Source of the DNA: a virus
Strand: one strand, 5' to 3'
DNA length: 64,000 nt
IMG/VR virus record: IMGVR_UViG_3300027797_000021
Coordinates: 27,617 to 91,616 of that record
Below the pieces are notes generated by a model that had not been told where the DNA came from, made no database searches, and worked only from the letters and a program-made list of their open reading frames with translations. A program made the position numbers and the translations under genes. Shown here in pieces: positions 3,560 to 52,955 of this stretch (positions are counted from its first letter, which is position 1; each line of letters starts with the position of its first letter).

Positions 3560-5751
3560 GATTTTTTAACCTTAGCTATTAATTGGTAAGAATATATACT
3601 TGGAGTGAAATTTATTCTATTTTTTTTAACTATTTTTATCTTAACTAAAATATTTTTTACCTCTTTTGGTATTGTAGGATAGCTAAGGTACGATCCGCCA
3701 GATAATCTGTATTCATTCAGAACTGATTGATTAAAGAATAATACTTCCGGTATACCTGAAAAGTCTAATTGTATAGGAGATATCTGAATCCAATTACTGC
3801 CATTATCCACTGAGATATATCCTAATATAGATACATTTTTTAACATCTCCTCATCAATGTTGGAGTTAATATCTAGCATGACTGACTCTACGGGAAAATC
3901 AAAACTGAATGGTAACGAAACCATTTCCAACTGCGAATTAAAAGTTTCTTTATAAACTTCTATATCCCTTAGCCCTATACACCAGCGCTTAGCCGGATAT
4001 CTTTCCTTAGATGTTTCCAGTGGTATTGAATATTTTGTTATTCTTTCCTGAGCAGTAAAAGACTGCTCTATTACAGTTATCATATTTACCGTACTTCCGT
4101 CATCTAGCAGTGTTGGCGTGGCCTGATTTAAAATGTAAATATCTAATAAATCATCAAAGTCGTTTTGAGCAGCGTCGATTGTGTCATAGTTTTTATTTTT
4201 TATTTCATCTTCGGTAACATCTATAGAGTCTAAGAATCTTGGAACACGTATCACTATAAAATTGCCATTTATATCCTTGTTAGGAGAATTTTCTGAAAAC
4301 CATCCCTCAAAATACGCCTTCACTTGCTCATTGGATGGGTTAGTTATACTGAATTCTATAACGTAGAACTTTCTTGCAACTGGCTTCTTTTTAATAAAAA
4401 CCTCAATATACTTAGAGGCTTTTCCTAATTTTGAGTATTCTGTTGGATTTGAAATCGTAGGTAGGAGATTATATCTGTTATATTCAACCTTTTCGTATAT
4501 GTCCTTATTCAAGGCATCAGGATTAAAGCGTTCTAGGTTTGCAAAAGGGTTATTTATATTCGAGGAGGTTGGCTTCCAATATACGTGTTGCATTTCTATA
4601 TTGGAATATTCCTGCTGCTTAAATGAAACTTGAACTTTAAAGACTTGCCTCTCAGCAAATCTTACTGTTGCCTTACTGTAAAAGTATGATTTAGCCATTT
4701 GCAAGTTTAGCGGAACCAATGAAGACCCTATATATATTGGAGCATCAAGCACTTCTTGTGATACCCCATCTTTTCCATATACTACTATGCTAGTAACTTC
4801 TACATATTTCATTGAACCAAAGTATGGAGTGATATCTATGCTATTAGCAACAGAGCTATTTGAGGAAGCCAATTCCAGGTCTAGCACCAGAGGGTCTGCG
4901 GTGTTGTGAGTTGACCAATCTACTAAATCACCTTCGCCAGTATTTGAACTATTAAATTCAGATTTAATATATTTAAATTCATTTTCCCTCGCCGGAATAG
5001 AGGGTTGGGGTGTTGGTTTACTCTTGTCAACGTTCAATGCTTCATATTCAAAGTAGGTTAAGGGATTAGAATCTTTTAAGCTGGTAAGATTATTTAAAGC
5101 AGAACTACGTTCAAATATGTATTGATATTCACTGCTTTCTTCCGAGTCTGTAGCCTTGATTACTTGATGACTATTGCCGATAAAGCCTCCGGAACTTAAA
5201 ACTTTTACTAGGTTAGCATTCCATTTTTGGGCAGCAGATACAGACAGGCTCATTATTCCATTTTTAATTAATGGATTTAATCCAGCCTGTATTCTGGAAT
5301 AGTCTATCAAGTCATCGTTATCAAAAGAATCTCCTACATAATAAATATCATCAGCTGGACTTCTGGAATACATCTGTAAGATTTTAGATTTTGATGCTAT
5401 TCTTTCTGAAAATCTTTTTTCATTTTCTATTTCTGTTGAAAATAAATTAAATATACTGATCGACTTTGCATTTAAGAAGTCAACTTGACTAGCTATAGCA
5501 TTAAGGTCAGTTGAACAGCCATCGAAAAATAGATTAACTTTTGATGAGATTGGTGGCTCACCCTTAATAAACGGATAATACTGAGTTAACGGTGCACCGA
5601 TTTGTTCGCGCACTTCAGTTAGAATATTTGAATACTCACTCGCTATTTCTTCTTTAGAAAAAATTCCCCTAGAATTAACTACGTTAATTAATCTAGATAC
5701 TTTAATTAATAATTGCTGATATGTTAATAGATTTGCGGATAATTGTGTCAT
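3556..5751 (-). CDS. Baseplate/tail peripheral protein, discoidin-like family (paralogue 2 of 3)
   Basis: A 731-residue virion protein. The N-terminal 130 residues are helical. Beta-rich segments follow, and near residue 590 the sequence RWCIGLRDIEVY matches in type and order the FGLRDLFIG segment of the downstream neighbour. That segment is followed by SLPFSFDFPVESVMLDIN, comparable to SKPLSIPV...VALDVN there. It carries one Ala-Thr-Pro site (NQATPTLLDD). It overlaps the next gene by four bases and follows the previous one after ten, so the trio should be co-translated. I see no catalytic motif. By analogy with large phages such arrays of related beta proteins build baseplate periphery, but that is inference from position. 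Confidence 0.55.
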   Translation of the reverse strand: MTQLSANLLTYQQLLIKVSRLINVVNSRGIFSKEEIASEYSNILTEVREQIGAPLTQYYPFIKGEPPISSKVNLFFDGCSTDLNAIASQVDFLNAKSISIFNLFSTEIENEKRFSERIASKSKILQMYSRSPADDIYYVGDSFDNDDLIDYSRIQAGLNPLIKNGIMSLSVSAAQKWNANLVKVLSSGGFIGNSHQVIKATDSEESSEYQYIFERSSALNNLTSLKDSNPLTYFEYEALNVDKSKPTPQPSIPARENEFKYIKSEFNSSNTGEGDLVDWSTHNTADPLVLDLELASSNSSVANSIDITPYFGSMKYVEVTSIVVYGKDGVSQEVLDAPIYIGSSLVPLNLQMAKSYFYSKATVRFAERQVFKVQVSFKQQEYSNIEMQHVYWKPTSSNINNPFANLERFNPDALNKDIYEKVEYNRYNLLPTISNPTEYSKLGKASKYIEVFIKKKPVARKFYVIEFSITNPSNEQVKAYFEGWFSENSPNKDINGNFIVIRVPRFLDSIDVTEDEIKNKNYDTIDAAQNDFDDLLDIYILNQATPTLLDDGSTVNMITVIEQSFTAQERITKYSIPLETSKERYPAKRWCIGLRDIEVYKETFNSQLEMVSLPFSFDFPVESVMLDINSNIDEEMLKNVSILGYISVDNGSNWIQISPIQLDFSGIPEVLFFNQSVLNEYRLSGGSYLSYPTIPKEVKNILVKIKIVKKNRINFTPSIYSYQLIAKVKKS

Positions 5752-19866: not shown

Positions 19867-21036
19867 TTAATAAGTTGTCGATCCCATTATAACAGAATTT
19901 ATACTAACAGTTCCAGCTGATATATACTTTTTAATGCCTTGTAACGAAAAATCTTGTAGTGGCAGCTCTTTTCCATCGGCGGTAATGCTAGATACAATTG
20001 TATTTCTTATATAATCAGAAGATCTGTTAATTTGGTTTTCAATTTGGGTCAAGGACATGGTATCCCCTATGGTTAGTGAATTTAAATACCTCTTAACGAA
20101 TAATGATGCTTGATTTGCAATGCCGGAAGCCAAGGTCGCAGATACACCCATGGGGATTCTAATGGTAGCTGCAACTGAAACTGTAACTTTTTCTGCTATT
20201 CTAACATTGAATTTAACACCTACTGGCTTGACTGCGTTAACTGCTAATAAAATATTTTGAGGAAGATTACCTAATCCACTACTTGTTTCTGGGACTACTA
20301 CAATATCGCAAGATCCTATTCCATAAGAGCCTTCTCTAATTCTAACATCTCTTACGCCCCTCACTCCTAAGGCAGCAAACCTTACTGATTCTGCACTCCC
20401 CACTGCCTTTGACTTAATCGACGCAATTATTCTTCTTCTAAAATTAGAATCAGATTCTGAATTTATATTAGAATATACTTCTTTTGGATTATTACAAAAT
20501 ATGATTACTCCAGCTGGGGAAAAGAAATTGTGCTTTGTCAAAGAATTAACTGGAGCTACGTACGCATTGTCCGAGAAATTTGGTTCTACCCTACCGTAGG
20601 CTCTGGTTGAACCTGTTGGAATTACTACATCACCAGCTAGTTTAAAGCCATATTGTTTTGATATAAAATTTGACACGTCATTATAAACCAGTACATCTTT
20701 TGGAATAGTTATAGCCGAGCTATGAGCTTTATTTATGAAGAATTCTATATTGAAGGACTGTCTATCTTGAGAAGCGTAATCTGTTATACTCTTTCTTGTT
20801 ATCCCATAAAGATCGCCAATCAGATCTAGATTCCTACCAGAGGCACTAGATAGGTCCCCTTGCGTTATGTTGAACCTTAGTGCTTCGTAAAGATCTGATA
20901 TTTCAGAACTAAAAGCTTCCGCAAAAGCTCTAGCAATGGAACCTGGATAGACTGCCGATATTGCTGCGTCTTTTTGTAAAGAATTCAATATACTTACTAA
21001 TATATCTGATTTACTTTTAATACCATAAACGGACAT
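19867..21036 (-). CDS. Baseplate J-like wedge protein
   Basis: A 389-residue protein of the Baseplate_J family (P2 gpJ / T4 gp6 type), which builds the inner wedge ring around the hub. The sequence shows the family layout: a helical N-terminus (SILNSLQKDAAISAVYPGS, then ISDLYEALRFNI and LDLIGDLYGI), a beta domain with FISKQYGFKL, and the conserved ESDSNFRRRIIASIKSKAVG segment near residues 190-210. A C-terminal half of repeated alpha-beta units follows (KFNVRIAEKVTVSVAATIRI). Length is typical. It is three bases downstream of the gp25-like gene, the usual gene pair of contractile tails. It has no Ala-Thr-Pro site, unlike the next gene. I am confident in the family. Confidence 0.88.
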   Translation of the reverse strand: MSVYGIKSKSDILVSILNSLQKDAAISAVYPGSIARAFAEAFSSEISDLYEALRFNITQGDLSSASGRNLDLIGDLYGITRKSITDYASQDRQSFNIEFFINKAHSSAITIPKDVLVYNDVSNFISKQYGFKLAGDVVIPTGSTRAYGRVEPNFSDNAYVAPVNSLTKHNFFSPAGVIIFCNNPKEVYSNINSESDSNFRRRIIASIKSKAVGSAESVRFAALGVRGVRDVRIREGSYGIGSCDIVVVPETSSGLGNLPQNILLAVNAVKPVGVKFNVRIAEKVTVSVAATIRIPMGVSATLASGIANQASLFVKRYLNSLTIGDTMSLTQIENQINRSSDYIRNTIVSSITADGKELPLQDFSLQGIKKYISAGTVSINSVIMGSTTY

Positions 21037-22456: not shown

Positions 22457-24715
22457 TTAATCATTTACTAAATATTCTCCATTTAGCCATCTATCGATGT
22501 ATGTGGCAGAATTCTTGCCTTGTGTACCAGCATCCTTGGCGTATACGTCTTTAACCCATTGTTTCAATGCTGCTTCAGTGCCTCCACCATTTACGTAAAC
22601 TTCTACGGCGTCGCTAAACTTAACTGATCCTATCCATCCATATGGGTCTTTGTAATTATCTCCCCACGCTTGGAATTGATATCCGGTTTCTGGGATCGTT
22701 CCTAATTTTGTAAAAAGATAAGATGGAGGACCTCCCGTCCTCAAGGTGTAAAACATATATGCCTGGTTTAATGGTATCCAAACCCTACGGTCAACTAGTT
22801 CTCTGAGTTTTTCAACAGCACCGTTGTGACTGCCTGAATAAAATAATTCTAATTTATATTTTTCATTTAATTTTTCATTATAATTATCCACAGTAGGAGG
22901 TTGTTCTCCCGGATAAACTGTAGTCCAATTCTTGCTTGCTAGCTGCCATCCTTGCATCTGTTCTTTAGTCGTTGCATCTGTTAATTCATAGATTTTTCTA
23001 CCGTGCGCTGATCCATCGCCAGAATTTCTGCTAATTGTTCCATTGCTATATTCCCTAAATCCACCAGCGCCCATATTAATTTGAAATATACCCAAAGACA
23101 TAAAGTCTCCACTTAAAGTTTTCGGATTGCATGAAGTCGGATTACCTCCACCACTTTCCCTAACGGTAATTGCTGCAAAAATTGCTGCGGTTTCTTTTCC
23201 GCATACTGTGGTATGTAGCAGCTCGTAAACTGCGTCTCGCCCTATATTCTCTCCCCAACGACCATAATAATTTGTTGTAAGGTTAGAACTAGGAGCGACT
23301 ACTGTCGGAATGGGAATTAAACCTCCATCGATAGGATCAATCATATACCCAGGAGGTATTTCACCATTAGTACCTTCGTCAGGAACAATCCCTGCTGGAG
23401 TCATTGCTCCGCCGGGGCCAGTATATTTTCCTGCGCGCATTCCACTAAAGCTTAGGTGTATATGATTGGTATGGTTATTGTCTCTATTGTCGGCAAAAAA
23501 GTTTACATATTCTAGCCACGGTCGACTCAGTTTAAATGCGTTGGTACTTGCATCATTGTTGCCACTTTGGTCGACGCCATAACCAATGGCGTAGTCTTGA
23601 TGAATGCACAATAGGTCTGGCAGCAAGTACGGAGCTACATCCCCTAAGGTGTCCAGTAGTAATGTTAAAGCACCGTCGTATACGTCTTTAGTAACTCCGG
23701 GACTCAGATTTATTGCATCACTATTAATGTTGCCAACTGAAAATATGTCAACGGCTCTTCCACTAGAGTGATCGCTCAGCCATACGTTACCTTCATCATT
23801 TGGTTGCTTTGTCAACGCTCTTCCAGCACTGAATTGGCCATTAATAACTACGCCCTTTGAATGTAAAGCCAGTAGCAGCTCTATTAAAGCAGGAGCTACA
23901 TAGGCATTTATGTCCGTTGGATCTTCTAGAATAATATCTTTAGAAATGATCCTCTGTGACTCACCCACTATGGCATCTGGAAAATATGTATCTTCTCCGT
24001 TAAATACCGTGATTCCATCGGCAGCATATGTATTTGCAATGTCAAATTTAAAACTTGTATCAGTAAAAGTACTAGGATACTTGGAACGCAATACATCTAC
24101 TCTTTCTTGATACCATCCTTTTTCTTGTTCCGTCATTTGACTAAAGAGTGCTACATTTCTCATTCCTGCACTCTGGGTTTCGGTGGATGGTATGTTATCT
24201 CCGGTAGATGGATCTGCTCTAGTGCCTGAGGTCTGTGTACCGTAGTTACCAACACTTATCTGCTGCATATTGGCTATTGAACTACTAACAAACGATCCAC
24301 TAAAATTTTTTCCACTTAATGAATTTGCTATAATTCTATTGATTGCAGCTCCTCCAGTTAGTGTACTAGACGCCTCATCCTCTCGTTGACTTTCAGGATT
24401 GTTAACCTTAACATTTGGATTTTCTTGATTGCCCGCTGACGCTATTGATCCGCTACCTGTAATTAATGTATTTAGTGAAGAGGATACACTTTTATTCATT
24501 GCGGCAACGGCATACTTTGGGCTTCTAAAGAACGCATCACCATTTATCACATCGGATAGTGTTCTCGCGCTCAATGTTTGACCAACCATGGGTCTACTTA
24601 CTGAGGCGCTAGTATTTTTTACTGGCGTTTTTCCACCCGGAAAAAAGTCTGCGTGCAACGAAGTTGCAAATGATGCTGAATCGGCTAAGGCTGCATTATT
24701 AAAACTAAAAGACAT
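22457..24715 (-). CDS. Tail lysin: M15-type peptidase plus lysozyme-like transglycosylase
   Basis: A 752-residue protein with two apparent cell-wall enzymes. Residues about 265-425 look like a D-Ala-D-Ala carboxypeptidase (VanY/M15) domain: SDHSSGRAVD gives His316 and Asp323, and NHTNHIH provides His418 or His420 as the third zinc ligand. Residues about 485-690 look like a lysozyme-like domain: TVRESGGG with Glu520 as the expected catalytic acid, then LGIFQIN at 541-547. The first 250 residues are Ser/Asn-rich and low-complexity, likely a virion-attachment arm. Located between hub and spike genes, it should degrade peptidoglycan locally during tail penetration. A peptidase plus glycosidase fits a Gram-positive wall. 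The motifs are clear; activity is untested. Confidence 0.8.
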   Translation of the reverse strand: MSFSFNNAALADSASFATSLHADFFPGGKTPVKNTSASVSRPMVGQTLSARTLSDVINGDAFFRSPKYAVAAMNKSVSSSLNTLITGSGSIASAGNQENPNVKVNNPESQREDEASSTLTGGAAINRIIANSLSGKNFSGSFVSSSIANMQQISVGNYGTQTSGTRADPSTGDNIPSTETQSAGMRNVALFSQMTEQEKGWYQERVDVLRSKYPSTFTDTSFKFDIANTYAADGITVFNGEDTYFPDAIVGESQRIISKDIILEDPTDINAYVAPALIELLLALHSKGVVINGQFSAGRALTKQPNDEGNVWLSDHSSGRAVDIFSVGNINSDAINLSPGVTKDVYDGALTLLLDTLGDVAPYLLPDLLCIHQDYAIGYGVDQSGNNDASTNAFKLSRPWLEYVNFFADNRDNNHTNHIHLSFSGMRAGKYTGPGGAMTPAGIVPDEGTNGEIPPGYMIDPIDGGLIPIPTVVAPSSNLTTNYYGRWGENIGRDAVYELLHTTVCGKETAAIFAAITVRESGGGNPTSCNPKTLSGDFMSLGIFQINMGAGGFREYSNGTISRNSGDGSAHGRKIYELTDATTKEQMQGWQLASKNWTTVYPGEQPPTVDNYNEKLNEKYKLELFYSGSHNGAVEKLRELVDRRVWIPLNQAYMFYTLRTGGPPSYLFTKLGTIPETGYQFQAWGDNYKDPYGWIGSVKFSDAVEVYVNGGGTEAALKQWVKDVYAKDAGTQGKNSATYIDRWLNGEYLVND

Positions 24716-24724
24716 TTATTACTC

Positions 24725-27700
24725 CTACGTTCCCGGATTCAATGTGACTTGTCTTGGAATTAGTGCAGATTCTTCTGCGCTAATAACTGATTGGGACTCC
24801 ACTTGAAGCTGCTTTGCATAAACTGTTGCAAGATTATTAACAACTAGTTCCCAGTTTAGAGTAACCGGATATCCATCTTCGTAATATTCATCCCAGAATA
24901 TAGTAGGCCAATCATTAGACTTTTCATAAGTTGTTTCTAATACCTTAAAGCAAACTAGATTATTGTAAAATCTATTAAAGTCTTCTTCCGTCAGTCCATA
25001 ATTTGCCATTGATTGTGCAGAAAGATCCAATGGTGGATTATATTGAATATCCAAAGTAGCAATTTTTTTCATAATATTGGATCTTTTTATATAAAGGGGA
25101 GATTCCTCGTACACTGAAGCAAAAAACTTTTTACTAACATCATCATCTGTGCCTGTATCTGATACTGTAGGAACAATTATCTTCCCCTGATTTGCAACGA
25201 AACATCCCCTGACAAAATCTTTTGCTTGATTGATGACTGATTCTGGCTGATAGTACCAGACCGTCCCTAGTGCTCTTTTCCCTTCGGCGCCGTCGAAAGA
25301 GTCTTTTGTATAGTTTTCAAATCTATTCTCAGCAGCGCCGGGTTCAAACTGAGCTTCGAATATAACATCATTACTTGAGCTATTGCTAACTTTCATTCTT
25401 AATACAAATACTTTATTAGCTATTTTACTCTGCGTATAAATCTTAGCTCTACCGCCAGGGGTTGAGGTAGATGTTAGATTCGTTGTATCCCCAAATGGAT
25501 CGTTAACATCTCCACCTGGTTCACTTGGGATTTCTCCCACTCTCATGGTATTGGTTTCGCCTGTGTTCATTCCATCAAATCTGACAGTAAAAGTTGCTCC
25601 AGAAATAACGTCCTCGACATCAAATGTGTCGCCGTCTTTAAACTTAGTAACTGTTGCTATTACCTTAAATAGGGATGTTTGCAGGGCAGTTTTCTCTGGA
25701 CCAAGTCCGCTAAGACTAAGTACTCGAGCGTGTGTTAGAGCATTTTCGTAATCAGTATATCTGACTAGATCTTTTATTTCAGTTTCTTGCCATCCAAGAC
25801 TCTTTAGTAGGTCGTCGCTTCTAATAAAGGCATTGCCTTCAGGCGTTTTTACTTTTGTTCTTGCTCCTAATATTCCTGGCAGTAAAGCTTTTGTATGGTA
25901 CCTACCTACTACCATACCTTGATTATATGATAATCCTGCGTCCATTGGTTGACCATTTTTATTTAGATACTGAACATAGCAGCCATGCTGATCGAGTACG
26001 TTATCCCTCAGCCATGTCCAGCCCTTCCAGGCTAATTGCCCAACGATTGGAACTGCCCTTGCCAAAGATGCTCCCACGACTGCTATAACAGTATCTGCCC
26101 CCGGCACTTTAGCTTGCCCGGCTCTTGCTATTTCGTCTCGTGCTCTATCCGGAAGGCTTAGCGCAGTTTGATTTGCCATAATATCTTTCATCAAAGCTGA
26201 GGATCCGTGTGTATACTGAATTCCGCCAATCATCTGTGTACTCAAGGAGTCTGCTAGTGCATCTACGGAAATGTTTCCACCCATGTTTATACCAGAGTTC
26301 GATGCCATAATATTATCCATGTAGAATCTAGTATCATTTCTTAGATTCTGCATACTGAGCCATGAGTGCAACCATGTTGACATAAACCATCTGGAGGGAT
26401 CATTAACTGTAACTAAGGCATTGGGTGTGATGCTGGTAACGTATCCCATCTCTGAAGTGAAGTGATGAACTACTTGCTCTACCTCAAATATTCCATACAT
26501 TCTACTATAGACATCAGATAGATACACTAAGTCGTGCGGTCTAATATCTGGATTTCCCACTAAAGTGAGTTCTCCACCATAAATATCCTTAATGGATTCC
26601 TTTAGATGGGATAGTGCCACTCTTCTCGCGGACAGTTCATCTGGAGTGCCTTGTAAAGTTTTTGCATATCCCCTAAATGTTTCCAGGGGGTGCATAAAGG
26701 GGTGAAGAACTCCAAGGAATCCAGAACCAACCATATTATCATAATATAATCCGGTCTCAACTGTAGTCTCTGTTTGACGCTCTGATGGAGCCCCTTTATC
26801 TAATGCAACCGTTACTGGATTTTTTCCATCAGAAACCGCTGTAATAACAGTTGAAACGTTATTTAAATTTTCTTGAATTTGATTGGATATAATATGAGAA
26901 AAAGAACTTAAATAATGTATTCTTTGGAATGGCTGGCGAACCTCTACTACAGGCTCTCCATATTCTCTAGTGAATGGATTGTCAACTGCCCTTAACAGCG
27001 TTCCTGGTCTTCCGAGTGAATAGTATATTGAATCATTTAATACTTTATTAAGAATATGAGCCTGCTTACTAAAGTTCCCAACCTCAGAAAGTGCATATCC
27101 CATCTGCATCATGCTCAACTTAAACATGCCCAAGAGTGAGCTCAGGCCATCTCCAATGGCTCCAAGTATTGGACCAATATTAGCGTTGTAGAAATCTGAT
27201 ACGTCTTCATCTATTCCACCAATAAACGTTGAAGAGTTACTTCCCTCTCCTTTTGTCGAAACTAAAAGCTTTAGGAATTTACTATTGTCTTTAGCGTATT
27301 GGCTATATGGATTAATGAATGCTTCAAATACTTTATCGATTGGCTTAAAGGACCACTGTCCATCTTCGCCTCCTCCGCCAGATGTAATTGCACCACGTTT
27401 TCTGTCTGGCTTAAGCACTAGCCAAGCTCTACCATATCCAGAGCTCCAAAGCTTTTGCCTGAATAACCCAACCATCAATAGGAATAGTTGCTTAGGTGTC
27501 TTAACTGCTTCTGATAAATTTATTGCAGTTTCTGGATTATCTTTATTCTCAATTGAAATTGAAAGCGCGTTATTAATTACCTGTGTTTCAAAGAAATTTG
27601 ACCTGATACCATCTAATGATTTAGAGATAACACTATTGAAATACTGTATAATTCCAGCGTCGCCTTGAACTCCTTTACTCTGATAGTCTATATAGTTATT

Positions 27701-30700
27701 TGTAATAAACTCCACAGCATCTTTTTTATCTTGAGGTGTAGATTTAGTGGAACCGTAATTGCTTCCATATTGAGTTTCTGAATTAAAGAAATCGGAACCC
27801 AATAGAATGGCTATTTCGTCTACTCCTGTACCTTCAGTAGCAGAAAGACCAGGAATGGTTACATTGGATTGTGAGAAATTTTGAAATGAGGTAACATTGT
27901 TTCCTCCTAGTATTCTTGAGAATTCTGGAGGAAATTGATCTGTTGAATCAGCGTCCATACCATATGTCTTAGTAAATATAGCCTTAACGCTATCATAAGT
28001 ATGATATCCAAATCTGAACTGATCCCATATGTCACTTGCCTGATCAAGTGTTCTTCCGTTTCCAGCTATTACCGAAACATTAGGGTCATAATTCTCATCA
28101 TAAAAAGATCTAGCTTCAACTGATGTGCTATCCATTGGCGAATAGACGGCGGCAAAGCCGACTCGCCCACTGCCAGAATCCTCATCTCCTGTCGTATAAA
28201 GCTCAGCATCGAGGCGTTCATATAGCTTACCCTTATCTAGGGCATTGTAATCCTTGTCTATAATTGCCTGAAAGTATCCTGGATTATCTCCGCTTTTAAG
28301 AATATTTCCACCATACTCATAATTCATAGTAGTGACTCTAGCGTTCTGCGCAGAATACTCTTCTAGTGAGCTATCCTTGTCGGCATCAATCTTAAAGTAA
28401 TCTCCTACGCTAGGTTGACCAAAGTCTCCAGGACCAAAAACTTTTGGTGAAGCAATAAACTTATTACTGTCGCCATTGTCATTTATGGCGTATGCTCCAA
28501 AGCCAATAATATATGCAGTTGCGTCATTGGTGTCGTAAAATCTTTTTGCTGGGGCTGCTTCTGCTGCAACGACTCCCAATGGGGTACCATCTGGTACGAA
28601 AGCAAAGAGGCAATCAACATCTCGTGGGAAGGTGCTTAAACCGCTTGCTTTTTCCAATTGAGCGTATGTGCTATTTGCTATGGTCATATCTAAAGTATTC
28701 GAATCATAGCTTTGCAAATTGGCCCAAGCGGGTAAAGATTCTGAGAGTTCACCAATTAAATTAGCTCCTTCATTGAACTGAGATACAAATGTTCCTAAGT
28801 ACCATGCAGCGTCGGGCGACACAACTGCTGCAACTTCGTCATCATTATCCTCTCCCCACATAAAGTACGCCGGGGCACAAACTACTGCTCTTCCCGTTAA
28901 CGGGCTGAATACAAGTACTCTTCTTTTTTTGTAATCGCTTGCTGTTCCATATAGATCTTCATTGGGGAAGTAGGTATCTTTAAATTTACTCAGTGATGCG
29001 TCGGGGATAGGGCCATCGGACGTGGTGGGCAAGTAGGGCCATTTCATTGCTATGTAGAATTGTTCTTCCGTTGCAGTTGCTGGACAGCCCCATTCTTCAT
29101 ATGTTATTTGTTGATTTAATTCATATTCAAAACTGAAATCATCCGAATTCTCTTCCTTTTGAGCAGTAGTGCTATTGATCATTGTAAAGCCCACTAAGGG
29201 ATAGTTTTCTTTCTGTAAAGAAGAGACAGACGGCAGCGGCATTCTTGCGACAGTAGTTTGATCTAGGTTCAAAAACTCCACGCCAGAAGAACTAATAGAA
29301 TCCATAAGACTCGTAAAGCCTAAGGGCCTATCTAGCTCCAATATGCCAGAACTAGGCCTTACAGTAATCTCTGTCTCTTGTAGAAAACGCGATTCTAGTT
29401 GAAGAAAATATATTAAGTTTACTGCCAGCGTAGCTCCACCCTCTGTGTAGCTGGACGAATTTATGGCTTCCTTATATCTCTCCATCATATCTGCTTGATC
29501 TTGCTCAAGATCATCAAGATCATTAGTATCAACTTCGTTTCTTGCTGAAAGAAATTCAGCGAATTCAGAAAATAAACCACCATCTCTAACTTCGTAAGAT
29601 TTGCTATCTAAAACGGTAGTTTCAGATATCGTATAGTACGGGTACTTAAATCTTACTGGAAGATTATCTAGTTGTCTATGATCATAACTAGGAGTTAAGG
29701 GTGCATAAGTTGTGGGATTAGTGCTCACTGGTAAGTGAAAGCCCATTTTAACTTTACCAGAACTAATAGGGAGTTTAGAGATAATGATTTCATTATCATC
29801 TTCATCTTTACTAGTTCTTATTTTTGCTAGATTTGAATTAAAATTTAATAACTTTCCTGTTAGACTTTTTGTTGGAGCATATTCTCCAGTGGAAGATGCT
29901 TGGTCTTTTGCTAGTCCAGCCATGACATCACTAAGCTCTTCAGATCTCTTAAATGCCTCATAGTCTGCTAATGAGTTAGATTGTTTATTGACATTGTTCA
30001 TAATTGTCTGAATATCGTCATTAGGACTTCTATCTTTTGGATAGCCTGGAAGATTTAATTCATTAGCTTTCCTTACGCTTGGAAAGCCCGTAGTCACTGG
30101 AACTACACCGGAAGTATATAACCAATGCGGCTTTCCATAAAAAATAGTAGATCTATCCTCAAAAGGTCTAACTGCTACTATATAATTTGGCAGTAGCCTT
30201 GCGCACATTTGGAAAAGATCCCATACGGTTCGCATGTATGTTTGTGCTCGGAATGACACTTCGTCAAATCCACTTAAGTCATCATCAGCGTTGGGGGCAA
30301 TTATTCCCATTGTCCTAAATACATTAGTGCCACCCCTACCTCTCAGTAGGCCCATGAGAGCTCCACCTCCAGCTATTCCTGCTATAACATTAACTCCCGG
30401 TATAGCAGCAATGCCTGCTGTTAGTCCACCTAGTAGGACATTCTTGACAGCCCCTGCCCGTCCTTCTGCTGAAATGAGTTTATTACCCTCAACATAGGAA
30501 TCTATGGCAGCACTAGCAGAAACTGACTCATTTTGAGCTTCTACTATTAATCTGTTCCATGATCTATCTGTTCCATTTTCTAGATATGCTTGTCCAGCTA
30601 AAGTTTTTCCATCACCCTCAACCAAAGACGCTGCAGTCAGCCATCCATCGTCTAGATCTCCACCTAAGAATTGTGCGAATCCGGTTCCATTTCCAGGATA

Positions 30701-33700
30701 AATATTTCTTTTATATAATTCAAGATCTACTTCTGAAGAAAAATTAGACATTAGTTGACCCATACTGGTCATCACTCCTCCATTGCCAAAAAATGCGTTC
30801 TCATTTCTTGAAAATACATTTGTTGATAACTTAAAAGTTGCGGCGTTAGCTGCTCCACCAATATCTCCCTGCCCAACGTTAGAGTAGGCATTGGTGACAA
30901 CGTTTCTCAATCCATCGGCTCTTTGTCTTTCAACTTCGTTGAGTGGCTCATATAGTATTGTACCAAAATGTCTAATGCCAAATCTATTTTCAGAAAAAAC
31001 CGTTCCCAGAGTTGCCCTAGCTATTGCTTCGCGAACCCTAGATGCTCCCATACTTAAGAGTCTAACCATTAAGTCTCTTGGCTCCGAAAGGTACATGCCA
31101 GTATCTACTCCGCCATCAATTTTTCCAGAGTCACCTTTTTTATTTGTTGAGTTAACAACAGCGCCAAGTTCAATTGCGTCAGATTGGGCAGTGATAGTAA
31201 CTATTTCCCCTTCTTCAACATTTGTTATAACTCCATTGAATAGCGTTTGCAGTGAGTTTGGATTCGAGCCATACCCACCTCTTAAGTGAAGTCTAACTCC
31301 TGGCTTTAATCTTATATTATTAATGTCAACAACATAATCATTTCTCATTCCGGAAATAATATTTTTAGCTATATTTAAAGTTCTATCTAAGATGGCGCTG
31401 ATTCCATCGACAGCACTTAGGGGATCCTTATTCAGGTCATCATTACCTGCGTTAAATATATCTGTAGACGGGCGCGTTGTTAACTTGGAGTACATGTTTG
31501 AAACTCTCAATATTAATGTGTCTCCTAATAAATCTTCAGATGATACAACTGAAAAATCTATAACAGACTGAAGTCCATAGAAATTATCGAATAATTTGAC
31601 ACCTGCAAACATTCCACCTTCATCTATAAGCCATAGCATGTAAGTGGGGAATGCTCTAATCATGCGCCCAGATATATCTCTATATTGGACATCGTTAAGC
31701 ATTTTTTCCATATGGTTATTGAACGAGCCATCGTAAGCTTTTTGATATGCGGATAACGGCTGAGCTCCACTAATTCCAGTTAAAGAATTGGTACAACCAA
31801 TATCTGGAGTTTGCATATCTTTCGTATAATTACTTTCAAACTTTTTTGCGCCATCAGATTCAACTCTAACATTAGTTCCTTCTATTGTAAGGTAAAATCT
31901 TCCGGTGTCTTTATTGATGTAGCCGAAATGCGTTCCTAGAGCACTATACATTATTGCTGGGATTTCATTAGCGTCTTGTTCTTCGGGATTAGTCAGTGGA
32001 AGTAAGTTAATAATTTTATGGAATTCAACCTCATCTGGATCAAAGCTAACAAATTCCTCTTCTGCTAAATGGGAACTGGCTAATACTTGTGCAATAATAT
32101 TTTCCGTTTGCGAACCAGTAATGCCAACATTTCCTACGACAAATGGTGCTCCATTAAACTCTTCAAAAATTTGGCTTCCCTCTGATGACTGTGACGCTAA
32201 AAATATATAATCAGTTAAAAGTGCAATCTTTGAATAATTGTTAATAGTATTATTGTCTGGTTCCGATGTAACTTGTTGAAACAATGCAATAAAGTTATGA
32301 ATGCTGATTCCGGACTCATTTACATAGTCTATCATTTCATTGATTAGATCTTGATTTGTTTGTCTTCTAGATTCAATCGCAGCAACATTAGCAGCATCCG
32401 TGAATGAGTATCTTCTCATAAAGTCTTTAATGCTATTTTTTACAGATTCAATTTTTCGTTCGATAGCTTCAGCCCCTCTAGGGCCATCAGTATTTCTTGC
32501 CCAATGATCTGAACTATCAAAAGTAAAAGCTTTAGCTAAGTCTACTTGAGTAGTATTGTTATTGATAATGTCACGATCAAACATTTCGAAACTTCTAAAA
32601 TAGAAATCTGGATCTAGGTTGCCAACAATATCTCCATTCTTATCTTTTACACCCAATGGAAGGTCAGGATAAGCGTTGAATGAGCCCCACAATTGCTTCA
32701 TTCTTAAGAAAGGATTTCTCTTCGTGCCAAAATGGTCAATTAAGTCTTTTTGCTGCTTTGAAGAAATTTTCTCTCTCTGCTGCTGGAATATATCAAAGTC
32801 AACTAGGCTCAGTTGGACTGAGTAGACATGTGGGTAATTCGGTATTGTATCGACCTTATAGTTAAGTGGCAATACATATTTAATGCCAGATAACGCAGTT
32901 ATAATATTTTTAATTCCTAAGAATCCTATAACCCCAGTAGAGTGTTCTAGTCTAGCTAGACCATTAACATGGTCAAATACTGATCTAATTTTTAATAATT
33001 CTTTTTCACCAAAGACAGTCATGGACACATTAATGTAACTATCTTTTCCGCCAATGTATTGATAGCTAGGCTCATCTTGCATTTGGATTTGTAGCTTTGC
33101 TAAATTATTACCCATGGACACACTAACGCCGTTAACTATGGCACTTTTTGGATCTAGATCCACACGATTCATTGGAACTTCCCACTCATTAAAGTGGTAA
33201 TCCCCATCTTTCAGCCTAGTTGCCTCCATCATATTCTTAACAAAGCCATCCGTAAAGAATCTTTCGTACATATTTACTTGAAATAATTCGGTTACCTGCT
33301 GTGTAACTTTTTCTCTATCTGGTTCTACCCCGGCACTTTTAGTCTGTCTAACAATTTCTTCGTCAATCAATATATCTAATACGGATCCAGATTCGCCGGC
33401 CTTAAGGTCAAATAGATACTTTATCTGATTCAAGCTTTTATCTGATGTTAGCACTCCGTATAAGAAATAAGACTCTTCAGTGCTAGAGTATTGATAAAAA
33501 TATCCGGCTACCTCAACTCTTTCATCTGGCCCCAAATAATCCAAGAGCCACTTCTGTTGTTCTTGGTCTAGCCTAGTTGCATTAGCAATAACAAAAGATT
33601 TTGCTAAATAAAGATAAACTTTTTTCTTGGTGTCAGTAGTGGAGATGCCTGCGGTCAGGCTGTCAACTGCCTGGCTTATAAACGTTTTCATGCCCTTTGG

Positions 33701-35992
33701 AAAGTTTGATTCTAAAGACATAGATTTAATTCCATCTATATCTTTTATCAAAGGACTGTTAACAGAGCGCTCTATTCCGAATGAATTAAGAAGCCTATCC
33801 CAAAGTCCAGACGCTGTATCATTTAATATTTTTTCTTGATCACTTCTAAATGAGGTATTGTCCGGTAGAAATATTTTTGTTTGAGTTTCTGCTGGAGTAA
33901 ATAAAGTTATGTTACTTCCATCTCTCCATTGAGAAATTATGTTAGTTTCCAAGACGTCATTCCTAAAAGAGTTTAGATAAGTAAGTTGCACGTCTTCTGG
34001 CAGTACATTTATGTCAAAAATTTCAGATTGAGCTTCAAGTCCGGCAGCCGTTAATGCACCTTGATCGACCGCTGTATCAACAACCTTATTGTCAGAAGTT
34101 TTTATTAAGAAACTTTCATTGACATACCTATGCATTTCTCCGGCTGCTTTACCCATATACTGACGATACTTACCCCAGTGTATTGCCTGGTTGAAATCTT
34201 TTAACATTGGCAAGAAAGGCTTGTGATTAAAGTGGACCATTTCTAAATCGATAACAAGAGCAAATGGATAATTGGGAGCTGTTGCAATAGACATATTTGA
34301 AAGTCCAACGGCAGTAATGCCATGTACCGAATTTAGATAATCATTCTTAATCGGCAGGATCGGAGAATATTTGAATGCAGCTACTAGGCCTCTAAGCGAT
34401 GACAAGAATTTATCTATTTTTACTTCGTCATCTCCGCCATTTTTAAAGTCAATCTTAAAACTTTCATCTAGATTTAGCGTTGCCGCATCGGAGATTGATA
34501 AGCCCCATATCTCTTCATAATTGGGAAAGAACAACCTCATAGAAATAGTAGTTTCTTTATAGCCTGCGTTAAATTTAGGTGTGTTTTTCTGTCTGATTGC
34601 TCCACCTGTTAATGATCCTGTTTTAAAATTAGAATTTACGCTAATTGAAACTGGAGGAACATAAAAGTTAGCAGCTCCCAGCCTGAGATGAAATATATCT
34701 GGTTTTCTGGGTGGAATATTTTCTCTAAATGGGAAATCTACAAGTGCTTGTTTAATTCTTTGTGCGGTATTTTCTACTCTAAAAGCTAAGGTGAATATTG
34801 CTTCGCCACCTTTAGTAATTCCAAAAGCTTTTTCTAGTGAATCCATTGCGTCAGCTTCATTGTTCAATGTATCTTCTGCGCCACCACCCTTGCCATTATT
34901 CGAGTAGTCACCGACCGCGGCCAGTGCATCAAATACAAATGTAACTAAACTTGGGAAATAAAAATTAATTATAGAAAATGATATTGGATCTTTTTGAAGA
35001 TTATAAACTACTTCACTTAATATTGTTAGCCATGGCGTATCTATTTCAGGACTAGTATATTCATCCATTGACCTTTTGGCTGTTGCAACGCTCTGCAGTC
35101 TTTTCTTTGCAAAGTTGCTAATTTCATAAGCAAATGAGGCCAGCTGTAAAATTCCGCTTGACTCTAACCTAGCGTAGATGGATTTAGAAGTTCCAGTATC
35201 TAATTCTATCGGACCAGAGGCGCCTAAACCAAAAATTCTACTGGTTGCGCTTTTTGTCTTCTCATCAGCCTGAAACTCGGAGCCCCTGTTTGTCGAGAAG
35301 TATTTTTTTATTACTCCATCAACATCATTAGTTTGATTTATTGGATCACTGCCGTACACATTATGTAAAAATATTCTAAAGTCTGTTAGGTAATCCTTGG
35401 TGACTTCATCTTCTGTATTATTATCTTCTAGCTCTTTATCTTTTTCTGTTGTATTAATTTTTTCTTCTAGCTCAAGAGCAACTAGATCTTCATCAGTTAT
35501 TCCGTCTTCACCTATGTAACTTTTCCAGATATTAAGCCTGTCAATAATAATTGACTTAGCTGTTTCCATTGTGATTTTTTTTGCACTATAGCTGATTAAG
35601 TAGTAATTAAAAAACCAATTTAATGCTTCATCTGCTGATGGATTATCTAGAGTGGCAAATCCAAAATTAAATGCCCATGTCTGAAATGTCTCAGTTACAA
35701 ATAGTAAATTTGAATCTTTATCTAAAATTTCGCAGTTTGCCAAACGGAGTGTTGACAAATAGGCGTATTTATCGCCTGTATTTTTAAAATCATTATCACT
35801 TGCAAAAATAAGGGCCCTTCCACCTTGATTACTATCGTAACCAATTATTTCTGGGTAAGCTCCTGGTAGAGTCAGGAATGCATGCATCTGCCTTTCATTG
35901 AAGCCCCTAATATCTTCAATTGTTGAATTAATACGATTTTCATTTTCGGATAGATACTGTAAGACTATTTTTGCTATTGGATTAATTGCCAT
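24725..35992 (-). CDS. Giant baseplate hub protein with embedded SNase-like domain
   Basis: A 3755-residue protein. The N-terminal 1200 residues hold two related tube-like segments, each containing an APNYP/IPNYP strand. Residues about 1555-1620 (LKPGVRLHLRGG...LFNGVITNVEEGEIVTITAQ) resemble the first barrel of gp27/gpD hub proteins. Around 1930 TVWDLFQMCARLLPNYIVAV and RSTIFYGKPHWLY are a second hub element. Near 3148 GNPDIRPHDLVYLSD and GIFEVEQVVHHFTSEMGY form the closing barrel, after an insert of about 1200 residues. Residues 3445-3590 look like a staphylococcal-nuclease fold: DGDT (3453-3456), VRF with Arg3471, Glu3479 and GKRALG with Arg3573; the position of Asp40 is Asn3476. It stands between tape-measure and lysin genes. 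Hub identity is probable, the nuclease fold plausible. Confidence 0.7.
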   Translation of the reverse strand: MAINPIAKIVLQYLSENENRINSTIEDIRGFNERQMHAFLTLPGAYPEIIGYDSNQGGRALIFASDNDFKNTGDKYAYLSTLRLANCEILDKDSNLLFVTETFQTWAFNFGFATLDNPSADEALNWFFNYYLISYSAKKITMETAKSIIIDRLNIWKSYIGEDGITDEDLVALELEEKINTTEKDKELEDNNTEDEVTKDYLTDFRIFLHNVYGSDPINQTNDVDGVIKKYFSTNRGSEFQADEKTKSATSRIFGLGASGPIELDTGTSKSIYARLESSGILQLASFAYEISNFAKKRLQSVATAKRSMDEYTSPEIDTPWLTILSEVVYNLQKDPISFSIINFYFPSLVTFVFDALAAVGDYSNNGKGGGAEDTLNNEADAMDSLEKAFGITKGGEAIFTLAFRVENTAQRIKQALVDFPFRENIPPRKPDIFHLRLGAANFYVPPVSISVNSNFKTGSLTGGAIRQKNTPKFNAGYKETTISMRLFFPNYEEIWGLSISDAATLNLDESFKIDFKNGGDDEVKIDKFLSSLRGLVAAFKYSPILPIKNDYLNSVHGITAVGLSNMSIATAPNYPFALVIDLEMVHFNHKPFLPMLKDFNQAIHWGKYRQYMGKAAGEMHRYVNESFLIKTSDNKVVDTAVDQGALTAAGLEAQSEIFDINVLPEDVQLTYLNSFRNDVLETNIISQWRDGSNITLFTPAETQTKIFLPDNTSFRSDQEKILNDTASGLWDRLLNSFGIERSVNSPLIKDIDGIKSMSLESNFPKGMKTFISQAVDSLTAGISTTDTKKKVYLYLAKSFVIANATRLDQEQQKWLLDYLGPDERVEVAGYFYQYSSTEESYFLYGVLTSDKSLNQIKYLFDLKAGESGSVLDILIDEEIVRQTKSAGVEPDREKVTQQVTELFQVNMYERFFTDGFVKNMMEATRLKDGDYHFNEWEVPMNRVDLDPKSAIVNGVSVSMGNNLAKLQIQMQDEPSYQYIGGKDSYINVSMTVFGEKELLKIRSVFDHVNGLARLEHSTGVIGFLGIKNIITALSGIKYVLPLNYKVDTIPNYPHVYSVQLSLVDFDIFQQQREKISSKQQKDLIDHFGTKRNPFLRMKQLWGSFNAYPDLPLGVKDKNGDIVGNLDPDFYFRSFEMFDRDIINNNTTQVDLAKAFTFDSSDHWARNTDGPRGAEAIERKIESVKNSIKDFMRRYSFTDAANVAAIESRRQTNQDLINEMIDYVNESGISIHNFIALFQQVTSEPDNNTINNYSKIALLTDYIFLASQSSEGSQIFEEFNGAPFVVGNVGITGSQTENIIAQVLASSHLAEEEFVSFDPDEVEFHKIINLLPLTNPEEQDANEIPAIMYSALGTHFGYINKDTGRFYLTIEGTNVRVESDGAKKFESNYTKDMQTPDIGCTNSLTGISGAQPLSAYQKAYDGSFNNHMEKMLNDVQYRDISGRMIRAFPTYMLWLIDEGGMFAGVKLFDNFYGLQSVIDFSVVSSEDLLGDTLILRVSNMYSKLTTRPSTDIFNAGNDDLNKDPLSAVDGISAILDRTLNIAKNIISGMRNDYVVDINNIRLKPGVRLHLRGGYGSNPNSLQTLFNGVITNVEEGEIVTITAQSDAIELGAVVNSTNKKGDSGKIDGGVDTGMYLSEPRDLMVRLLSMGASRVREAIARATLGTVFSENRFGIRHFGTILYEPLNEVERQRADGLRNVVTNAYSNVGQGDIGGAANAATFKLSTNVFSRNENAFFGNGGVMTSMGQLMSNFSSEVDLELYKRNIYPGNGTGFAQFLGGDLDDGWLTAASLVEGDGKTLAGQAYLENGTDRSWNRLIVEAQNESVSASAAIDSYVEGNKLISAEGRAGAVKNVLLGGLTAGIAAIPGVNVIAGIAGGGALMGLLRGRGGTNVFRTMGIIAPNADDDLSGFDEVSFRAQTYMRTVWDLFQMCARLLPNYIVAVRPFEDRSTIFYGKPHWLYTSGVVPVTTGFPSVRKANELNLPGYPKDRSPNDDIQTIMNNVNKQSNSLADYEAFKRSEELSDVMAGLAKDQASSTGEYAPTKSLTGKLLNFNSNLAKIRTSKDEDDNEIIISKLPISSGKVKMGFHLPVSTNPTTYAPLTPSYDHRQLDNLPVRFKYPYYTISETTVLDSKSYEVRDGGLFSEFAEFLSARNEVDTNDLDDLEQDQADMMERYKEAINSSSYTEGGATLAVNLIYFLQLESRFLQETEITVRPSSGILELDRPLGFTSLMDSISSSGVEFLNLDQTTVARMPLPSVSSLQKENYPLVGFTMINSTTAQKEENSDDFSFEYELNQQITYEEWGCPATATEEQFYIAMKWPYLPTTSDGPIPDASLSKFKDTYFPNEDLYGTASDYKKRRVLVFSPLTGRAVVCAPAYFMWGEDNDDEVAAVVSPDAAWYLGTFVSQFNEGANLIGELSESLPAWANLQSYDSNTLDMTIANSTYAQLEKASGLSTFPRDVDCLFAFVPDGTPLGVVAAEAAPAKRFYDTNDATAYIIGFGAYAINDNGDSNKFIASPKVFGPGDFGQPSVGDYFKIDADKDSSLEEYSAQNARVTTMNYEYGGNILKSGDNPGYFQAIIDKDYNALDKGKLYERLDAELYTTGDEDSGSGRVGFAAVYSPMDSTSVEARSFYDENYDPNVSVIAGNGRTLDQASDIWDQFRFGYHTYDSVKAIFTKTYGMDADSTDQFPPEFSRILGGNNVTSFQNFSQSNVTIPGLSATEGTGVDEIAILLGSDFFNSETQYGSNYGSTKSTPQDKKDAVEFITNNYIDYQSKGVQGDAGIIQYFNSVISKSLDGIRSNFFETQVINNALSISIENKDNPETAINLSEAVKTPKQLFLLMVGLFRQKLWSSGYGRAWLVLKPDRKRGAITSGGGGEDGQWSFKPIDKVFEAFINPYSQYAKDNSKFLKLLVSTKGEGSNSSTFIGGIDEDVSDFYNANIGPILGAIGDGLSSLLGMFKLSMMQMGYALSEVGNFSKQAHILNKVLNDSIYYSLGRPGTLLRAVDNPFTREYGEPVVEVRQPFQRIHYLSSFSHIISNQIQENLNNVSTVITAVSDGKNPVTVALDKGAPSERQTETTVETGLYYDNMVGSGFLGVLHPFMHPLETFRGYAKTLQGTPDELSARRVALSHLKESIKDIYGGELTLVGNPDIRPHDLVYLSDVYSRMYGIFEVEQVVHHFTSEMGYVTSITPNALVTVNDPSRWFMSTWLHSWLSMQNLRNDTRFYMDNIMASNSGINMGGNISVDALADSLSTQMIGGIQYTHGSSALMKDIMANQTALSLPDRARDEIARAGQAKVPGADTVIAVVGASLARAVPIVGQLAWKGWTWLRDNVLDQHGCYVQYLNKNGQPMDAGLSYNQGMVVGRYHTKALLPGILGARTKVKTPEGNAFIRSDDLLKSLGWQETEIKDLVRYTDYENALTHARVLSLSGLGPEKTALQTSLFKVIATVTKFKDGDTFDVEDVISGATFTVRFDGMNTGETNTMRVGEIPSEPGGDVNDPFGDTTNLTSTSTPGGRAKIYTQSKIANKVFVLRMKVSNSSSNDVIFEAQFEPGAAENRFENYTKDSFDGAEGKRALGTVWYYQPESVINQAKDFVRGCFVANQGKIIVPTVSDTGTDDDVSKKFFASVYEESPLYIKRSNIMKKIATLDIQYNPPLDLSAQSMANYGLTEEDFNRFYNNLVCFKVLETTYEKSNDWPTIFWDEYYEDGYPVTLNWELVVNNLATVYAKQLQVESQSVISAEESALIPRQVTLNPGT

Positions 35993-49165: not shown

Positions 49166-50140
49166 TTACTCACTTATAAGTTGTGTTGTGTCCCCCGTTT
49201 GTTTGTACCAATTTGACATATTACCATTTGTGGATGTCGCAGTCTGTGCTGATACCGCAGCCTGTGGGTCTGCTGAAGCATTAAAGGTAGTCTTTGTTTT
49301 GACGAAGGAAAGATTAGCCTCTGTAAAGTAGTGATCTCTTGCTATGAATTGATAACTTTCACCAATAGGCTGACCACCCGGGCCGTAGGCAATTGACATA
49401 TTTGTCAGGTTTACTTCTTGTATTACTATTTTCATAGGTTGAGAAGAATTATCAGATTTAATAGTTCTTTGATTAACGTCTGAGATCATCATTCTATCTA
49501 TGTTGTCAGAAATATTAGTATCTTCGCTTTGATATAAGTTCAATGGAGACAGTGCAACCTCTTCTAGCCCATAGACTATGATTAGATTAAATGGCGGATG
49601 GGCGCTAAAAATATTTCTATTAGAATTCTGAACGTTTTTAAAAAATGGGTCGTCAGTAGTTCTGTCCAATTGTCCTCTGGCCCAATATTTTTCTATTAAC
49701 TTTTCATCTTCTACTGTTTCAAAAGTAGATCTCATACGAGACATTACCTGATTGGCGGGGTATTTCTCTTTTGCTGCGCGTGCTCTAACATCCGCTGCCT
49801 TCTCAAGCAGTTCTGTCATTCTTCTTGGGTACTTGGAAAACATTGTTATTTCTCCACTGATGATTCTAGTACCATACATCATGGCGTCATAGTTATATGA
49901 CCAGAACCCATACAGTGGTTGTTTTTCCTGTCTTACATTAAAAGCGAAGTTTGCAATATCTAGTTCATCTTCGGGGGAAAATAATCCATCTATATATATT
50001 CTGATGTCTTCACCGCTAAAGTAATAATCATAATAATTACTAAAACGTAGATCGTTCTGTCCCCCGCCACTCCATACGGCATCTATTGTTTCATGAAGTG
50101 GGTCAAACTCTCTTATATTGTTATTGTTTCTAATTGTCAT
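49166..50140 (-). CDS. Tube-fold tail protein C (divergent)
   Basis: A 324-residue protein with the same strand order as the two upstream tube-like proteins: DIRIYIDG and FAFNVRQEKQPLYGFWSYN at the start, GEITMF, PPFNLIIVYG in the middle and GESYQFIARDHYF near the end. A helical insert (about residues 115-165) and a Ser/Thr-rich C-terminus set it apart. Its start overlaps the preceding stop (ATGA). Such divergent tube copies usually form the adaptor between tube and hub or a baseplate ring. The fold relation is by pattern, without alignment software. Confidence 0.6.
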   Translation of the reverse strand: MTIRNNNNIREFDPLHETIDAVWSGGGQNDLRFSNYYDYYFSGEDIRIYIDGLFSPEDELDIANFAFNVRQEKQPLYGFWSYNYDAMMYGTRIISGEITMFSKYPRRMTELLEKAADVRARAAKEKYPANQVMSRMRSTFETVEDEKLIEKYWARGQLDRTTDDPFFKNVQNSNRNIFSAHPPFNLIIVYGLEEVALSPLNLYQSEDTNISDNIDRMMISDVNQRTIKSDNSSQPMKIVIQEVNLTNMSIAYGPGGQPIGESYQFIARDHYFTEANLSFVKTKTTFNASADPQAAVSAQTATSTNGNMSNWYKQTGDTTQLISE

Positions 50141-51683: not shown

Positions 51684-52955
51684 TTATAGACTAATGGCCA
51701 CTCTGACTTCGATCTCTTTGAGTTCGAAGGCAGGTGTTAAAATAAGGTCTACAACCGCCTTGTTTTCGTTCGGGATATAAGAGACCGTAAAGTCACTACC
51801 GAGCAAGGCTCCTACAATTTGCATACCTCTCAAGCCAGAAGTAATTGCTGTTTCCATCGCATTTCTTGTTTGAATATTTGATGGCTCACCAACGAATCTC
51901 TGGCAGGCTTGTCTAACAACCGATGTAGCATCATTAATGATTCTCTTGGTTGAAAGACGAGTATAATCTGATGTTGACCAACTAAAGGTTAATCCATCTC
52001 CAAATACTGGGATCTTATTAAAGTTAACAACAACACTGTTTACGCCCTTGTCTGACAAGGCAGTTTGCTGCGTTCTAGTGGGGGAGTATCTTATAGCCTC
52101 GACATTGTAAGCTGCCTTATTAACGACTGAACTGTATGAAGGAAGTATGCTTATAGTTGCCGCCATATGTGTAGCTCCATTTGCATAACCAAAATCAACG
52201 CTTCCAGAAGAGTAGTTAACTGGCTTAATTTCTGTAGCAACAACTACCACATAGGGACCAGTCTCTTTTAGTAGGTCGCTATTGTTTCTAACTGGAAGAC
52301 TAGTAAGAGCCAAATGTGTATTGACATTTCCTGGAGTCATAGTCTCCGATGTTCCAGCGTATGGATTAACTCCCATAATTGCTATGCATGGATTGATATT
52401 TTCCGAAATATCTTTAACTTTTGCCGAAACCTTATACGCCCAGTTATAAGCGACGGTAGCAGAATTATCTGCATAGAATCCTACTGCCGGAGCAGTAGTG
52501 CTTGTGTTCGGCGTTGCACCTGTGAGGTCCCAGGTATATGGGTGACCACCACGACCCCAAGGAACAATGATGTCTGGGATGCAAGACTCTGCAGCAATGA
52601 ATGCATCGTCGAAAATGTCTACTGAGACGGGAGTGGCATCACTGCTTAAGCTAGTAACAGCTCCAGTAGATGGAACAAATACGGTATTGCTTGGTAACGG
52701 AACGATATACATTCTTCCGGCTCCAGCAATGAGCAATTCAAGGAATGCTCTGTGTGCATCTGATCCGTCACCAAAGGCAGAGATGACATCAGCTTCGTTT
52801 GAAACTCGTACGACATCAAGGTCAGCCACTCCACCGGTTAGATTTGGGGTGCTGCGCTTTGCAATTGCAACAATTCGAGGACCAGCTGGTGCGTCCTGAC
52901 GTGAGACGCTATAGAAGCGATCTCTGATTAAAGTTTTTACTCCAGGTATACCCAT
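51684..52955 (-). CDS. Tail sheath protein
   Basis: A 423-residue contractile sheath subunit. The N-terminus (MGIPGVKTLIRDRFYSVSRQ) and the C-terminal domain (RQACQRFVGEPSNIQTRNAM, then VDLILTPAFELKEIEVRVAI) have the typical sheath pattern in which terminal arms weave neighbouring subunits. A 114-base leader with a promoter-like site and a GGAGG ribosome site precedes it. Codons are G+C-richer than in the neighbouring neck genes. It carries two Ala-Thr-Pro sites (SSDATPVS and LTGATPNT) in the variable middle domain, which in sheaths faces outward. Confidence 0.85.
   Translation of the reverse strand: MGIPGVKTLIRDRFYSVSRQDAPAGPRIVAIAKRSTPNLTGGVADLDVVRVSNEADVISAFGDGSDAHRAFLELLIAGAGRMYIVPLPSNTVFVPSTGAVTSLSSDATPVSVDIFDDAFIAAESCIPDIIVPWGRGGHPYTWDLTGATPNTSTTAPAVGFYADNSATVAYNWAYKVSAKVKDISENINPCIAIMGVNPYAGTSETMTPGNVNTHLALTSLPVRNNSDLLKETGPYVVVVATEIKPVNYSSGSVDFGYANGATHMAATISILPSYSSVVNKAAYNVEAIRYSPTRTQQTALSDKGVNSVVVNFNKIPVFGDGLTFSWSTSDYTRLSTKRIINDATSVVRQACQRFVGEPSNIQTRNAMETAITSGLRGMQIVGALLGSDFTVSYIPNENKAVVDLILTPAFELKEIEVRVAISL

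Follow-up and report, generated by a model that had tools for sequence, protein, structure and literature searches.

Why would a phage carry a nuclease at the tip of its tail? Tail tips are known to bear enzymes directed at peptidoglycan and capsules. A nuclease in that place has no assigned role, and a report of 2007 left the purpose of one such case open. The question is raised again by the giant baseplate hub protein of a freshwater phage, encoded in a window of 64,000 nucleotides (the whole stretch of DNA analyzed here, itself part of a 91.6-kb virus record). A sequence-only reading of this window had placed a staphylococcal nuclease (SNase)-like domain at hub residues 3445-3590, which do correspond to window positions 25223-25660 on the minus strand, and knew of no described example in a hub.

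The Hub Protein and Its Gene Neighborhood

We assign the hub to the 0305phi8-36 type on the basis of PHROG matches, blastp comparisons, and its gene cluster, the relevant features being the following:

24725..35992, minus strand: hub ORF, 3755 aa, 0305phi8-36-type baseplate hub by collinear-block homology and a PHROG tail match at residues 3118-3189
30962..31705, minus strand: best conserved part of the hub, the hub core (residues 1430-1677), seed of the hub survey
25904..26947, minus strand: conserved distal hub block (residues 3016-3363), containing the PHROG-52 “tail protein” match
22457..24715, minus strand: next gene, 752 aa, candidate tail lysin with VanY-like and SLT-like stretches seen by eye
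19867..21036, minus strand: baseplate wedge subunit (PHROG 6), confirming the baseplate gene cluster
51684..52955, minus strand: tail sheath, as in contractile-tailed phages

By blastp, the hub has five collinear blocks in common with the hubs of Bacillus phage KLEB27-3 and Moorella phage MTATph1 and with those of Cytobacillus, B. velezensis, and Paenibacillus plasmids; residues 3016-3363 match residues 1882-2268 of the KLEB27-3 hub with an E-value of 5e-25. Weaker blocks are shared with the hub of Acinetobacter phage vB_AbaM_ME3 (ME3); this protein, ME3_37, bears the annotation of a homologue of the hub of 0305phi8-36. Both multi-block homology and a position in a contractile-tail baseplate cluster, as expected of a hub of the 0305phi8-36 gp147/T4 gp27 type, are found here; the nearby baseplate wedge and tail sheath genes indicate that the phage is contractile-tailed and that the hub belongs to its baseplate cluster.

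In the 752-aa gene that follows the hub, the VanY-like stretch reads SDHSSGRAVDIF...HTNHIHLSF and the SLT-like one AAITVRESGGGNPTS...SLGIFQINMG, both identified by eye; neither was found by Pfam. Beside the sheath gene, two adjacent paralogous ORFs (50137-50922 and 50995-51657, minus strand) have matches to PHROG 9206, “major head protein”, that cover roughly the same 160 positions; judged by their position, they could be tail-tube proteins.

A SNase-Fold Domain at the C-Terminus of the Hub

The last 325 residues of the hub almost certainly form a SNase-fold domain, an identification based on profile comparison and predicted structure. Its parts, all on the minus strand, are listed below:

24809..25672, minus strand: complete SNase-like domain, residues 3441-3728, with three insertions (AlphaFold2 model, Foldseek, hhalign)
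25385..25549, minus strand: residues 3482-3536, enlarged active-site loop, helix alpha1 (3512-3524), and strand beta4 (3529-3535), from the secondary structure of the model
25283..25384, minus strand: residues 3537-3570, beta4-beta5 insertion with conserved G3552, N3556, and Y3561 (AlphaFold2 model, hhalign, conservation)
24914..25240, minus strand: residues 3585-3693, helical insert of about 110 residues between beta5 and the last SNase helix (AlphaFold2 model, hhalign)
24809..24910, minus strand: residues 3695-3728, invariant WP..WDEY...G....LNW stretch and last SNase helix, LNWELVVNNLATVY (AlphaFold2 model, hhalign)

Scans with the single sequence and with a consensus HMM gave no usable match to this domain in Pfam, NCBIfam, or PDB sequences, and none to PF00565, the family against which the sequence-only reading had proposed to compare it, above the cut-off. 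One could, therefore, think of a chance likeness of short motifs in a hub devoid of any SNase domain. Profile-profile comparison and fold search rule this out, leaving that explanation virtually no chance of being right. Aligned with 11 free phage SNases by hhalign, the domain scores a probability of 96.5% (E 1e-9) with its helical insert and 98.0% (E 2.7e-13) once the insert is taken out, the alignment then reaching the last helix; the C-terminal piece alone still picks the correct SNase segment, at an E-value of 0.0018 and a probability of 15%. Profile-profile scores range from 66 to 82, against a maximum of 22-25 in 60 column-shuffled controls (81.7 for the real profile versus at most 25). 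Pfam-level SNase domains in homologous hubs, described below, also argue against chance. Failure at the Pfam cut-off is an operational limit and not a biological one.

The AlphaFold2 model of residues 3431-3755, built from an alignment of 55 sequences, has a pLDDT of 80 and a pTM of 0.78, with a core mostly above 90; the shorter stretch delimited by the sequence-only reading, modeled with 11 close relatives, had given a pLDDT of 40.6. The order of its elements (E11-21, E26-31, E37-42, H82-94, E99-105, E143-149, H282-288) is that of SNase. With Foldseek, all of the top 50 PDB matches (50/50) are staphylococcal nuclease or SND1, with probabilities of 0.99-1.00 and E-values from 1.4e-3; TM-scores normalized by the nuclease lie near 0.5, a value that the large inserts would lead one to expect. 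When viral predicted structures are searched, a “baseplate hub protein” from an uncultured phage comes first (E 8e-21), and most of the next matches are TNase-like proteins.

Staphylococcal nuclease and the free phage thermonucleases of PF00565 share with the window domain the order beta-beta-beta-alpha-beta-beta-alpha and the equivalents of D21, R35, E43, and R87. They differ from it in size (about 130 residues versus about 290-325); the window domain, moreover, has Asn at position 40 (also seen in free enzymes), is part of a structural protein, and lies below Pfam detection. The SN domains of SND1 (Tudor-SN), its best Foldseek match, have the same fold, but they are eukaryotic, arranged in tandem, and unrelated to tails.

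The sequence-only reading was right to name a SNase, to equate the residues as it did, and to place them in a hub; the SNase identity is borne out by invariance in 45 of 55 relatives, by profile scores, and by a model that retrieves SNases and has their order of elements. The end at residue 3590 was set too short: the domain runs to about residue 3728, near the end of the protein, and the proposed boundary left out the helical insert of about 110 residues and the C-terminal third, including the closing SNase segment (residues 3712-3725, with the equivalents of Asn100, Leu103, Leu108, and Ala109). Past the helical segment, relatives share the extremely conserved pattern WP..WDEYY.DG.P.TLNWELV..LA.VY.

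The insertions vary in nature. The hubs of L324 and L329 are natural forms almost devoid of the helical insert. In some relatives (L076, 10001-11470; the hub C-termini of L305 and L328), the loop past the Glu43 position, the site of the flexible active-site loop of SNase, is more than 100 residues longer, and three hubs (L282, L284, and L286) end inside the domain, past the strand following the first helix, and have it shortened.

Active Site and Its Conservation

The five residues singled out in the sequence-only reading were found exactly at the positions claimed:

25628..25630, minus strand: Asp3455, equivalent to SNase Asp21, metal ligand (position check, alignment, hhalign)
25580..25582, minus strand: Arg3471, equivalent to Arg35 (position check, alignment, hhalign)
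25565..25567, minus strand: Asn3476, equivalent to Asp40; Asn in 37/45 and Asp in 8/45 intact relatives
25556..25558, minus strand: Glu3479, equivalent to Glu43, general base (position check, alignment, hhalign)
25274..25276, minus strand: Arg3573, equivalent to Arg87, at the start of strand beta5 (3573-3579) (AlphaFold2 model, hhalign)

In the profile alignment, Asp21, Arg35, Glu43, and Arg87 are thus all present, and Asp40 alone is replaced, by an Asn that occurs in the family, where this position is not strictly defining.

Relatives of the hub C-terminus were present at 16 IMG/VR loci with 61-89% identity; alignment-based searches extended this to 24, then 42, then 79 loci (153 matching stretches, identity down to 30%). 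In a tblastn search with the family consensus, no annotated phage had a C-terminal domain of this kind, and no relative of it was found in the bacterial and archaeal genome collection. Equivalents of D21, T22, R35, E43, and R87 are kept in 45 of the 55 aligned relatives, down to 30% identity. Position 40 takes the states N, D, and I, with eight changes on the tree, and Asn is also found there in free phage SNases, including the PF00565-positive one on contig L001; because N and D swap repeatedly among relatives and free phage SNases also have Asn, the D40N replacement is, as far as the aligned sequences tell, a tolerated change and no sign of inactivity.

The other ten relatives have E22, I40, S/N/K43, and K/D87. 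Although the intact and dead groups were defined by E43 and R87, the tree was built without these active-site columns, and it groups the ten site-less relatives into one clade (support 99), for which a single loss is enough. Near-invariant columns of the domain lie in their majority outside the active site; out of 31, the dead clade loses only T22, the Phe after R35, E43, and R87, and the WDEYY..LNW stretch is retained in both groups; because the grouping itself used E43 and R87, the Fisher value for this comparison is partly circular and is given no weight. Since a clade that has jointly lost its active site keeps the domain, the fold can persist without the site.

Recurrence in Homologous Hubs

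We surveyed homologous hubs with the hub core, and not the SNase domain, as the seed; one should bear in mind that the 80 loci retained are the best matches and not a random sample. Among these best 80 hubs, 65 have a SNase-like domain, located C-terminally in 40 (two of the C-terminal cases, L312 and L316, being frame-broken), N-terminally in 22, and N-terminally in a degenerate state in 3; 14 have none, and 1 is cut off. About ten N-terminal calls have a weak HMM signal and are based on motifs in order plus a profile match that is likewise weak (63-78%). In a tree of the hub core, hubs with a C-terminal domain group into one clade (support 100), around which those with an N-terminal domain are scattered. 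This is compatible with a single relocation of the module from the N- to the C-terminus or with its loss and regain.

The named homologous hubs have their own SNase-like motif set at the N-terminus (KLEB27-3, Cytobacillus, B. velezensis, MTATph1) or internally (ME3), the Paenibacillus plasmid hub being the exception. In the profile comparison, the N-terminal group reaches 98.9% (E 3e-17) and ME3 95.9%; equivalents of R35, E43, and R87 are also present, by eye, in the N-terminal versions. The domains of ME3_37 and MTATph1 CDS0032 exceed the Pfam cut-off inside the hub frame. They are compact and have no helical insert, unlike that of the window hub, and their location differs as well: mid-protein in ME3 (about 1093-1255, followed by an M23-like stretch) and N-terminal in MTATph1.

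These two hubs already contradict the supposed absence of precedent, and so does a published one. Hardies et al. (2007, PMC2147016) described, in the BtI1 hub from Bacillus thuringiensis israelensis, a relative of the phage 0305phi8-36 hub gp147, an N-terminal SNase-related domain in place of cell-wall enzymes; they called its purpose not obvious and suspected a transfer from a stand-alone gene. As in the window, a SNase-related domain is fused there to a T4 gp27-type hub in a large myophage lineage, but it is N-terminal, whereas that of the window hub is C-terminal with large insertions. Compared from its published description, BtI1 finds its closest equivalents here in the Bacillus, Cytobacillus, and KLEB27-3 hubs. 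For SNases associated with a baseplate or tail, this was the only precedent that we found in the literature, and we found no functional study.

A free SNase gene also occurs in all 10 C-type records checked, so the hub domain and the free enzyme coexist; they are not redundant. In the virus studied here, the free gene (133 aa, Asn at position 40) lies outside the window, at G000:C1:18353-18610 (L001:1477-1875, minus strand). A cyanophage origin, hinted at by the free SNase, is unsupported, with psbA/psbD in 0/10 records.

Some contigs have short ORFs suggestive of a separate-gene form of the domain, an idea that we rejected, as the breaks are scattered along the hub and define no consistent gene. 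Three contigs (L112, L113, and L115) share, upstream of 8001, an out-of-frame stretch just before the SNase domain; eight others (L118, L124, L125, L128, L135, L147, L149, and L154) have single breaks elsewhere in the hub. Such frame breaks are either assembly errors or real splits. In L262, L272, and L294, the N-terminal SNase-like regions have apparently lost their DGDT and Glu43 signatures; this second decayed-looking group is separate from the C-terminal dead clade.

Possible Functions of the Domain

We lean slightly towards an active calcium-dependent phosphodiesterase, an entry nuclease, on the tail tip, with constraint released in one clade. The intact residue set in most relatives favors activity, and the intact clade is probably catalytically competent, judging from its conserved residues. 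Several observations speak against an active enzyme: one metal ligand is Asn, 14 of the best 80 hubs have no SNase-like domain, and the window domain is beyond the reach of Pfam and NCBIfam, with near-invariant columns mostly outside the active site. Activity appears dispensable in some phages, because the dead clade lost T22, D40, E43, and R87 and three N-terminal versions are degenerate.

As the main alternative, the domain could be a structural or docking OB-fold, i.e., an old nuclease that now shapes the hub or holds a partner and whose site owes its preservation to recency or to the stability of the fold and not to catalysis. SND1 provides a precedent for SN domains that act as scaffolds without catalysis, and the clade that has lost its catalytic site still has both the invariant WP..WDEY..G..LNW stretch and the helical insert. 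This explanation is nevertheless rather unlikely in our view: in intact relatives, whose identity falls to 30%, the catalytic positions are invariant whereas position 40 and the loop are not, and three of the 4/31 near-invariant columns changed in the dead clade are active-site positions. Even less probable, and by a good deal, is an enzyme or binder for another phosphodiester polymer, such as teichoic or lipoteichoic acid or a phosphorylated capsule; the domain is located where tail enzymes usually attack the envelope, and Bacillota phage-plasmids are the source of several such hubs, but no SNase member is known to act on a substrate of this sort.

For the preferred entry nuclease, we infer the activity, its calcium dependence, action outside the cytoplasm, a nucleic-acid substrate, the timing, and a docking function for the insert. 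The working phosphodiesterase, carried on the tail tip, would have its place of action outside the cytoplasm, at millimolar calcium. Its target would be nucleic acid in the path of the tail, whether extracellular DNA or RNA in the surroundings of the host or nucleic acid laid bare when the envelope is breached; that clearing or cutting it at entry is the role of the domain has, in our opinion, an even chance. Cutting of peptidoglycan would probably fall to other proteins, e.g., the candidate lysin of the adjacent gene. Docking of the domain to the hub or baseplate would be the most likely role of the helical insert and of the invariant WDEYY..LNW stretch, both of which are kept even where the active site is lost.

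Implications for Phage Entry

The SNase-bearing hub was already known and has been neglected; this kind of hub is shown here to be widespread, and what is new is its C-terminal, heavily inserted form. The association recurs throughout a broad lineage in which intact versions coexist with naturally inactivated ones, so that the role of a tail-tip nuclease is testable by comparison. The existence of isolated phages with hub SNase domains (ME3, MTATph1, and KLEB27-3) opens the question to assay. Tentatively, and with some doubt, one may go further and propose that a dedicated tail-tip nuclease is a standard entry enzyme of 0305phi8-36-type large myophages, the SNase module being selected in the hub at any location. 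If true, it would be comparable to the T4 tail lysozyme, but directed at nucleic acid; the sequences compared here suggest that tail-tip nucleases may be a recurring part of large-phage entry.
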